Assembly (NCBI GenBank): GCA_010405405.1
Contig: MU004239.1
Location: 1,228,713-1,292,712 of the forward strand
Origin: Microthyrium microscopicum
Taxonomy: Eukaryota; Ascomycota; Dothideomycetes; Microthyriales; Microthyriaceae
Direction: 5' to 3'
Length of the DNA stretch: 64,000 bases
The translations under genes and the position numbers were made by a program. Under the pieces are notes generated by a model, which saw only the letters and a list, made by a program, of their open reading frames with translations, searched no databases and was not told where the DNA came from. This document shows positions 8,789 to 64,000 of the stretch, piece by piece (within the stretch, counting starts at the first letter, position 1; each line of letters begins with the position of its first letter).

Positions 8789-9570
8789 TCACATGAACGG
8801 ATCTTTCAACTTGATATGCTCCAATGATCCAATCCACCGACTAGTCCTCTTCCCTCTCATATGATGCACATCCGCCCACCGTTTTGCAACTTCGAGAACC
8901 TGCGGGCAAAAACTCTCTCGTGGACCTAGTGGATTGCGCAATACCCAGTTCAACTTATCAAGTCGCTGTCGAAGCTCTTCCACCAACTGTTTCTCCATGT
9001 TAGCCATATCGCTAGCTCAGCTAAGTTTTGACCGTCACTTACTGCGTCCTCCAGCGCAATCTTTGTAGCCCAAGTATCCTCATCATCACAATCCAGTCTC
9101 AACAGTGTGTACCTAACCTGCCGGACCGAACTTCCCTCTTCCTCCACGAGACGAGCCCGTTGTAGTAGACAAGGACTGCTTGGTTCTGTGCGTTCACAGC
9201 GTGTGCAGGCTGGTTTTCTGGCGTCACAGGGGAGACCTTTGAGGGCACATTGGAGACAGGGCGGGGAAATGTGGTAGGATAGGCTGGATAGATATAGAGG
9301 AGTGGCTTTCTTTGCTGAGGGAGCGGCGCTGGAGGTTTGAGTGGTGGTTGCTGGTGTGGTTGGAGCTGTAATCAGGTTGCTGGTTGAGGACTCAGATGGA
9401 GCCGCAAAGGTTGTGGATGATTGAGTTGATATTGGAGAGCTGGACTCTTCTGCGTCGAGCTCGTGAGAGAGGTCTCGTTCTGGTGTCTTCAGCTTTTGGG
9501 TATTGTCTGGGTCTCCATGTGGGATGGAGAGCTTGGTGCTCAGAAGTAGGTTGCAGACTTGGCTTTCCAT
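8789..9570 (-). CDS. uncharacterised protein with atypical Zn2Cys6-like motif
   Basis: Two exons (9570-9043 and 8986-8789, 56-bp intron) give 241 residues. The only acceptor that avoids an early stop is the CAG at 8987-8989. The first 95 residues are Ser/Thr/Pro-rich. Residues around 100-140 hold six cysteines with the spacing of a fungal binuclear zinc cluster (C-x2-C-x6-C-x5-C-x2-C-x8-C: CLQCALKGLPC then CTRCERTEPSSPC). The loop after the second Cys lacks most of the basic residues that contact DNA in Gal4-type proteins. The C-terminal half is Trp/Arg-rich and helical, and no Fungal_trans domain follows. It may bind zinc or a protein partner rather than DNA. Function unknown. Confidence 0.65.
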
Positions 9571-60645: not shown

Positions 60646-61302
60646 CTACGTGTCAGGGAATAGCGACCTTCGATTGATGATCGTTGTCCTCGACAACTCG
60701 AACACCCGCCCATTCTGCAAATCTGCACTCTTCAGTAGCTCCCAATCCAGCACAGTCTCCCCCTTGACGTCGAATTTGATCTCAGAGTCTCGGTCAGACA
60801 TGTAGGCAGGATGCACTGGAAACTTGCGCAGTGTCATGCGGGCTTTCTGATGCACTACGCTTTTATACAAGCCTTTCTCTATCCAGGACTTTAGGCGCTC
60901 GACTTGGAGGTAGTCGGCGAGGGCTTCTATTTTGGCGTATGTGATGCCGTCGAAGCCATCTTCGCGGGTCCAGAGGAGTGGCATTACGCCGGTGCGCAGA
61001 TAGGAGAGGATGTGGGCGAAGGCGGGTGGGTCAAAGTCGTAGTAGTAGTGTGGTGTGGTGTCTTTCTGGGTGGCTTCGGTGGTGATGGTTGTGCTGCTCT
61101 GTTCTGCCATTCTATAGATTTATTAGCAAGGTAGCTCTGATAGAAAATAGTTTGCGCGCTGGAATATTTTGCTTTACCGGCTTTCCAAGTCAAACATGCT
61201 GCGGAAATAGTCGCTGCCGCCATATATGCCATGGATCAAGATGTCTTTGGTGGTGGTAAAAGTCTGGTCACCAACTTCCAACGTGATTTTATCAGTTGAC
61301 AT
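60646..61302 (-). CDS. BTB/POZ (T1, KCTD-type) domain protein
   Basis: Two exons (61302-61178, 61111-60646; 66-bp intron) give 196 residues. It opens with the potassium-channel tetramerisation (T1) form of BTB: KITLEVGDQTFTTTKDILI, then SDYFRSMFDLES, after an insert YYYDFDPPAFAHILSYLRTG with the family RTG motif, and ALADYLQVERL. The intron falls inside the domain. The C-terminal 75 residues have no known domain. KCTD-type proteins form oligomers and often act as substrate adaptors of Cullin-3 ubiquitin ligases; that role is inferred. An ATG upstream of 61302 runs to a stop, so 61302 is the start. Confidence 0.85.
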
Positions 61303-62797: not shown

Positions 62798-64000
62798 ATG
62801 TCACTACCCACCCCCAATAAGACGCCAAGTCCCAACGACCACAAGAACCAAAGAAAAGCAGACGAGTCGACATCCGTACAGCCAACCAGCATGGAGATAT
62901 CCTCTAACATCCAGACTCCTAGCAAGACATCTCCTCGCCATCAAGCTTCCGAATCACCTGGACCATTCTCATCACCACCAATAAGCATGTCAACGTCAAC
63001 AAATCCCGATACACCCAGTCGCAGCATATTGGACTCCTCCGTCGAACCGGACACCTCACAGGCACTGACCAACCTGACTTCAGGTTACAAATGGCCACCG
63101 GACCCGCCACGCACCGAGGCAGATCGTCTCTTCGAAGAATTCAAAGCCACGTATGTCCCAAAATCAGAGCTCTACACACAGATCGTACCAGAAGTCACTC
63201 AGTTCATCGAGATATGCAAGTGGTTGCGTGGTTTCATACAAGCGGGTGCTATTCGTCAGCCATGTGTAACTGATGAGTGGTTTTGGCTGTACATGGCATA
63301 CAGATGGCACACATACGGACATTCAGCATGGCTACATGACTTTCACGCCATTGGAGTCGCAGATGTCGAGCAGTTCAGCAAAACATTCGCTGCTAGTGGA
63401 TGGAAAGAGGCATTTCGAGCCTGCCTTCCCGAAGCGGAAGTTGACTGGGCAAATTCATTATTCCCAGACTCAAACCGACTCAGTGGAGCAGTTGAGGACG
63501 CGAATTCCCGATATCAGGCAGCACTGGCTGATCCTTCACAATGCGTGTTGAATGAGGCGGCTTTGGAGGCCATTGTGAATGAATTGCCAGAAGACAAGTC
63601 GAAGTTGGCAATCTTCCACGTACTGGAAGAGGTAAAGAGCCGTCAAAAGGCGGCCACAGAAAAAATTCGACAAGTTACGGCTTCCTCCTCGAATTCGTCC
63701 AGTGAAGTGTTCCCCAACGGCTTCTCGTGGCAGCTGGCAAATGCATCCAAAGGTAAAAAGACCAATGCAGCTTTCGCACAGGGACAAGTTTGTGCTCGCT
63801 GTAGAGCAAAGAAGAAGAAGTGCGACAGAGCAAGACCACAGTGCGGGCCATGCGTGAGCCGGGGTTTTGCTTGTAATTACGATGGTGTTGACCTTGAAGA
63901 TGAGAAGATTGCTGCTCACAAAGAACCTGATGCCAAAGCCTGTTTGAGGTGTAAGAGCAAGAAGCTGAGATGTGATGGAGCAAAACCGGCGTGTCGAGCA
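62798..64000 (+). CDS. protein with two tandem Zn2Cys6 clusters, partial at right edge
   Basis: The frame from the ATG at 62798 stays open for 401 codons to the window end, so only the first part of the gene is seen. Residues 1-105 are Ser/Pro/Thr-rich. Residues about 106-235 form a Trp-rich helical region (EADRLFEEFKATYVPKSELY, FIEICKWLRGFIQAG, WFWLYMAYRWHTYG, FSKTFAASGWKEAF) that I do not recognise. Residues 332-359 are a perfect zinc cluster (C-x2-C-x6-C-x6-C-x2-C-x6-C: CARCRAKKKKCDRARPQC). Only 22 residues later a second starts at Cys382 (CLRCKSKKLRCDGAKPAC) and is cut by the edge after its fourth Cys. Gal4-type proteins normally carry one cluster, near the N-terminus. Likely nuclear and DNA-binding; no intron was needed. 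Confidence 0.85.
   Translation, partial: MSLPTPNKTPSPNDHKNQRKADESTSVQPTSMEISSNIQTPSKTSPRHQASESPGPFSSPPISMSTSTNPDTPSRSILDSSVEPDTSQALTNLTSGYKWPPDPPRTEADRLFEEFKATYVPKSELYTQIVPEVTQFIEICKWLRGFIQAGAIRQPCVTDEWFWLYMAYRWHTYGHSAWLHDFHAIGVADVEQFSKTFAASGWKEAFRACLPEAEVDWANSLFPDSNRLSGAVEDANSRYQAALADPSQCVLNEAALEAIVNELPEDKSKLAIFHVLEEVKSRQKAATEKIRQVTASSSNSSSEVFPNGFSWQLANASKGKKTNAAFAQGQVCARCRAKKKKCDRARPQCGPCVSRGFACNYDGVDLEDEKIAAHKEPDAKACLRCKSKKLRCDGAKPACRA

Follow-up and report, generated by a model that had tools for sequence, protein, structure and literature searches.

A Microthyrium microscopicum gene with two consecutive Zn2Cys6 clusters in the middle of a probable gene regulator

INTRODUCTION

Gal4-type regulators usually carry a single Zn2Cys6 cluster close to the N-terminus, although this arrangement is not strictly defining. 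They are textbook dimers, in which the dimer linker sets the spacing of the half-sites. In Gal4 the Lys-Lys and loop Pro residues contact the CGG triplet. The sections available from PMC5559640 describe Gal4-type proteins as typically binding paired CGG triplets as coiled-coil homodimers, and cite AlcR as a monomeric binder. With AlcR cited in this way, there is a precedent for one cluster contacting DNA as a monomer.

Some proteins with two Zn2Cys6 domains have been published. In the available parts of the sources, PoZCP55 of Pleurotus ostreatus is described with two such domains plus septin domains. CCG_02279 of Tolypocladium guangdongense and CCM_00582 of Cordyceps militaris are described with two each, grouped with DUF3468 proteins, the first listed cluster pattern having X5. 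An Alternaria brassicicola factor with two Zn2Cys6 domains is cited together with a transmembrane domain in the accessible text of PMC10305253. PMC2289846 and PMC4192604, considered as further two-cluster reports, were rejected, the passages at hand referring to two separate genes.

The locus described here probably also involves the multiplication of host sequences by repeats. According to the portion of PMC6710886 at our disposal, histone H3 of Pseudocercospora fijiensis underwent transduplication and repeat-induced point mutation (RIP), by which every copy but the original was inactivated. The first fungal example of transduplication came from Pyrenophora tritici-repentis (PMC3538342, partial text); in that case, as the same portion of PMC6710886 notes, the copies are little affected by RIP.

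RESULTS

An uninterrupted gene extends beyond the window

The window is a stretch of 64,000 nucleotides (C10:1228713-1292712) from a genome of 36.9 Mb in 20 contigs, whose numerous PF00172 genes and mutated repeats evidently point to a filamentous fungus. It ends within a gene for which a tandem of Zn2Cys6 clusters behind a 330-residue novel domain had been proposed. The following features of the gene carry the clusters:

62798..64000, + strand: protein-coding gene, codons 1-401 of 676 within the window, single uninterrupted ORF
63791..63874, + strand: Zn2Cys6 cluster 1, Cys 332-359, CX2CX6CX6CX2CX6C
63875..63940, + strand: inter-cluster linker, 22 residues (aa 360-381)
63941..64000 in the window, + strand: Zn2Cys6 cluster 2, Cys 382-409, spacing as in cluster 1

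Only the first four cysteines of cluster 2 lie inside the window, the last two being just beyond the edge. When the gene was read past position 64000 in the assembly sequence, the frame stayed open to a stop codon at C10:1293538-1293540 (L009 3039-3041), whose last base lies 828 bases beyond the window. The gene spans L009 1011-3041 and encodes 676 amino acids in a frame that is never broken. The stop-to-stop frame comprises 725 codons, which under uniform codon use has a chance probability of about 8e-16. A stop, a frame change or the loss of the fifth and sixth cysteines beyond the edge is excluded, the frame being intact and all the cysteines being there.

Scanning the ORF for simple splice motifs gave five candidate introns, all of them clear of the clusters. 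Two would preserve the frame, one within the N-terminal domain (aa 118-168) and one running from aa 634 to the stop. Splicing out of aa 118-168 is argued against by a paralogue on C12 (see below), which aligns over part of that stretch.

Both Zn2Cys6 clusters are complete

The cysteines of the protein are located at positions 140, 156, 209, 249, 332, 335, 342, 349, 352, 359, 382, 385, 392, 399, 402, 409, 450, 575 and 656. Zn2Cys6 clusters (PF00172) were defined by six cysteines in the pattern CX2CX6CX5-12CX2CX6-8C, and both clusters show it. The Pfam scan delimited two PF00172 stretches. In the PF00172 search of the genome, where the cut-off is 21 bits, one cluster scored 38.6 bits with an E of 5.9e-8 and the other 33.1 bits with an E of 3.0e-6 (for one genome). 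The tandem in one protein is therefore real, with 12 of 12 cluster cysteines present. The expectation that more clusters may follow was not borne out: the cysteine positions across the 676 residues and the Pfam scan give exactly two clusters and no third. Besides PF00172 no Pfam family exceeded its cut-off in the 676 residues, and the Fungal_trans (middle homology) region was absent from the whole protein in a Pfam scan taken up to E 1.

The Zn2Cys6 regular expression matched twice in the window, as compared with no match across five window shuffles; one match is the gene described here, the other a weak match at about 9.2 kb. The latter belongs to a 206-aa ORF (window 8950-9570, − strand) with the Zn2Cys6-like sequence CX2CX6CX6CX2CX8C, in which the last spacing is wide. 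Its score of 18.2 bits falls short of the Pfam cut-off (21).

The clusters resemble those of Gal4-type proteins in their spacing, in the basic loop between Cys2 and Cys3 and in the loop proline. Cluster 1 could be aligned to the GAL4 structures 1d66 (E 5.6e-4) and 1aw6, with the Lys-Lys pair and the loop Pro kept; inspection of cluster 2 revealed the same Lys-Lys, basic loop and loop Pro pattern. The matching chains were GAL4, HAP1/CYP1 and LAC9 for cluster 1, and RSC3, RSC30 and Cep3 for cluster 2 (E 5.6e-4 to 0.02). Unlike the Gal4-type proteins, this one has two clusters per chain, carries them in mid-protein (aa 332-409 of 676), and lacks Fungal_trans. Cluster 2 is followed by the basic stretches KKRR at 438 and KRSK at 456, and clear heptads of a coiled-coil dimerization helix were not apparent by eye in residues 410-480.

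Between cluster 1 and cluster 2, 7 of 22 non-Cys residues and 45 of 84 bases are identical. As a comparison set we used 16 other clusters, chosen from loci already in hand; among themselves these have on average 5.5 non-Cys residues in common (maximum 11). The best outside matches were 8/22 for cluster 1 and 9/22 for cluster 2, each better than the match to its own partner. A recent internal duplication was rejected, the identity of the pair being near the mean of the other clusters and closer matches being found outside. As each cluster is closer to a cluster of another gene, there is room for different functions of the two.

A second two-cluster gene in the same genome

The PF00172 search of the genome, in which 150 of the 169 candidates were scored, yielded at least 111 matches with an E of 0.001 or lower. 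Among the matches listed, two pairs of same-strand neighbours within about 300 bases were recognized by eye: the gene at the window edge and C11:444743-444973 (L010 2705-3418). The C11 gene likewise has two clusters in a row, but these are N-terminal, 15 residues apart and both of the X5 type. The next ORF has a Fungal_trans match and is probably part of the same gene, following an intron. NCBIfam gave zero matches with either two-cluster protein.

The rule of one cluster per Gal4-type regulator, on which the original prediction drew, thus describes the usual case and has exceptions, both published and on C11. Paired clusters are rare but already known, and it is the setting of the present pair that differs. 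The available parts of the descriptions of PoZCP55, CCG_02279, CCM_00582 and the Alternaria factor name no domains resembling those that flank the present pair. What is new is that the domain in front of the clusters has relatives in two other genes of the genome.

The flanking domains occur in two cluster-less paralogues

The part of the protein in front of the clusters consists of two sections:

62798..63082, + strand: Ser/Thr/Pro-rich N-terminal stretch, aa 1-95, from the sequence
63113..63667, + strand: N-domain, about aa 106-290, common to the C12 and C8 genes

The supposed 330-residue domain is accordingly not single: aa 1-95 are rich in Ser, Thr and Pro, and the conserved part extends from about 106 to 290. 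It can be called novel in so far as no Pfam family reached its cut-off, yet it has relatives in the same genome. In a low-confidence single-sequence model the first helix does not begin before residue 86, and the N-domain is predicted, again with low confidence, to be all-helical. Eight Trp occur within residues 88-300 (213 residues). Two structure predictions of the window part had mean pLDDT values of 52.7 and 44.5, and were uninformative at this low confidence.

Pfam searches with the N- and C-domains, including those of the C12 and C8 proteins, found no family over its cut-off. Sub-threshold matches to HRDC (E 0.19, N-terminal part of the window protein), DUF6859 (E 0.17, C12 protein) and zf-CRD (E 0.065, C8 piece) were taken as chance. 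Profile searches against the PDB returned chance-level matches alone (best E 0.32 for the N-domain, 0.22 for the C-domain).

A genome search with the full protein detected a match to the C-terminal domain in a gene on C12, along with repeat-borne pieces of the gene and zinc clusters of other genes. The C12 protein used here is a spliced model that we built (five exons, four introns, 395 aa). By blastp it matched the window protein in two places with the order preserved, at residues 106-279 with an E of 6e-4 and at residues 494-616 with an E of 1.4e-13. The C12 protein in turn picked up a gene on C8 (E 6.5e-7); the reverse search with the C8 protein found C12 (E 8.3e-7) and, weakly, the window gene (E 0.0022).

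The similarities were compared with 1000 shuffles each. For the window and C12 proteins no shuffle reached the score of the N-domain, and none that of the C-domain. The N-domain of C8 gave 0/1000 against either relative, so that all three pairs (window, C12, C8) stand at 0/1000 for this domain. The C-domain of C8 is weak, its scores being reached by 14/1000 and 22/1000 shuffles; in control pairings of unlike domains 688/1000 and 230/1000 shuffles reached the score. In a full-length MAFFT alignment of the window and C12 proteins the N-domains were out of register, whereas local or trimmed comparisons aligned them.

In both paralogues the linker between the domains is shorter than that of the window gene, basic and devoid of clusters. 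The C12 linker has no counterpart of a cluster (score 25.0, shuffled mean 26.1; no PF00172 match), and neither its sequence nor Pfam indicated zinc clusters in the C8 gene. Both genes appear intact. Judged from these alignments, the cluster pair seems to sit inside a two-domain family, whose C-domain is clear with C12 and possible with C8. Among these three genes, the pair was either gained in the window gene, which takes one step, or lost from C12 and C8, which takes one or two. Full-protein scans of viral and prokaryotic contig collections found zero relatives.

The window gene is uninterrupted and the C12 model has four introns, a difference for which a retro-origin or intron loss is possible.

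Degraded copies in AT-rich repeats

One segment of the N-domain is present elsewhere in the genome:

63203..63532, + strand: stretch aa 136-245, with degraded copies in six AT-rich repeats

The repeats L044-L049 are located on C7, C2, C4, C12, C4 and C12, respectively. All six carry the same piece of the window gene, a gap-free 330 bases (aa 136-245), with 94-95% identity when C-to-T and G-to-A changes are set aside. At 0.9 to 1.1 kb from it lies a second piece in inverted orientation, which comprises 26-27 codons with one gap (aa 600-627, but aa 600-626 in one of the repeats). The 9.9-kb stretches retrieved for the six repeats contained both pieces; in them aa 1-110 and the cluster region gave control-level scores only. 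A scan of two of the six (L044 and L047) with the whole gene region revealed no extra pieces.

Among the alignments listed, the repeats are 87-91% identical to each other; L044 aligns with L046, L047 and L049 in single blocks of 8.2-8.4 kb, and shorter blocks were obtained elsewhere, of 5.8 and 2.2 kb with L045 and of 3.9 and 2.3 kb with L048. As several blocks hit the end of the fetched stretch, these lengths are minimum values for the repeat. Helitron_like_N had zero matches, but so had the controls. RVT_1 had 98 matches, none within the fetched spans of the six repeats, where heavy mutation could hide one.

A seventh place (L043, C4:1788074-1789280) contains aa 207-288 and, adjoining, further partial copies. 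It also holds aa 296-412 with both clusters recognizable, and some pieces in the region are inverted. Of the 12 cluster cysteines, 9 are opposite Tyr in the tblastn alignment, one is kept, and one each is opposite Ser and Thr. Because this degraded copy holds both clusters, the cluster pair predates the C4 duplication.

Seven 3-kb loci, which together take in six of the seven places, had TpA/ApT ratios of 1.7-1.9, as opposed to 0.44 in the window gene. When the gene was divided into seven segments the ratio varied between 0.20 and 0.70, never exceeding 0.70. The lack of a RIP signature suggests that the gene has been kept functional.

These observations fit a scenario in which a repeat captured pieces of the gene and then underwent RIP. 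L043-L049 would probably be products of transduplication, the regulator-like gene itself having stayed intact. As in the P. fijiensis H3 case, to the extent that the available text of PMC6710886 describes it, host sequence would have been multiplied within a repeat, with RIP altering the copies and the original remaining intact; unlike there, fragments are involved here, and the gene is regulator-like.

DISCUSSION

The product of the window gene is probably an unusual gene regulator. We lean towards a nuclear, sequence-specific DNA-binding protein that reads its target with two clusters. From the features described above we infer the nuclear location, DNA binding by both clusters, a bipartite target and a role of the flanking domains. 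In the proposed mechanism the two Zn2Cys6 modules would lie between an N-terminal, probably helical domain and the C-terminal domain, and the basic stretches behind cluster 2 may serve nuclear import. Through its Cys2-Cys3 loop each cluster would contact a CGG-like triplet, so that a single chain could cover two half-sites with no need of a coiled-coil dimer as in Gal4, and the N- and C-domains would supply a regulatory or partner-binding function. Monomeric reading of two half-sites appears reasonable because cluster 1 is GAL4-like, cluster 2 has the same pattern and Fungal_trans was not found. The linker of 22 residues should in principle be long enough for two half-sites.

A more far-reaching version, which we regard as rather doubtful, is that a cluster-less family turned into a monomeric bipartite reader by gaining two Zn2Cys6 modules in its linker, and that the 22-residue linker rather than a dimer interface sets the CGG spacing. 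A natural single-chain pair whose genome also contains cluster-less paralogues would make it possible to examine directly whether such modules can be linked in series, and how regulators of this kind come about when DNA-binding modules are inserted into an unrelated family.

It is also conceivable, if somewhat unlikely, that one cluster alone reads DNA, the other having a protein-interaction or structural role, and that the protein is an ordinary dimer formed through the N- or C-domain. The divergence of the clusters (7/22 non-Cys residues in common) would agree with this division of labour. So would the paralogues on C12 and C8, which retain the flanking domains without clusters; because they do, these domains would have a role of their own, possibly oligomerization. 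This reading has to accommodate the fact that both clusters kept the six cysteines, the basic loop and the loop Pro.

The repeats bear on two further explanations. It seems improbable that the gene is decaying or non-functional, a recent chimera under no selection that is heading for silencing like the copies in the repeats. Pieces of it do occur there with RIP-type mutations, and it lacks the four interruptions of the C12 model, but its 676 codons are open, a RIP signature is found in none of seven segments and 12 of 12 cluster cysteines are preserved. We give very little credence to the reverse relationship, in which the window gene derives from a transposon-borne ORF and is not the donor of the pieces. 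Six repeats carry the same piece, as a transposon-borne origin would have it, but in the 9.9-kb stretches examined they hold aa 136-245 and the inverted aa 600-627, with aa 1-110 and the clusters at control level, and the paralogues look like ordinary genes with introns.

The upstream neighbour of the gene (window 60649-61110, − strand) has a marginal BTB/POZ match, 21.2 bits at a cut-off of 21.4, and the downstream one (L009 4494-6362) resembles transportin-3/importin-13 (PF24140, E 2.4e-8).
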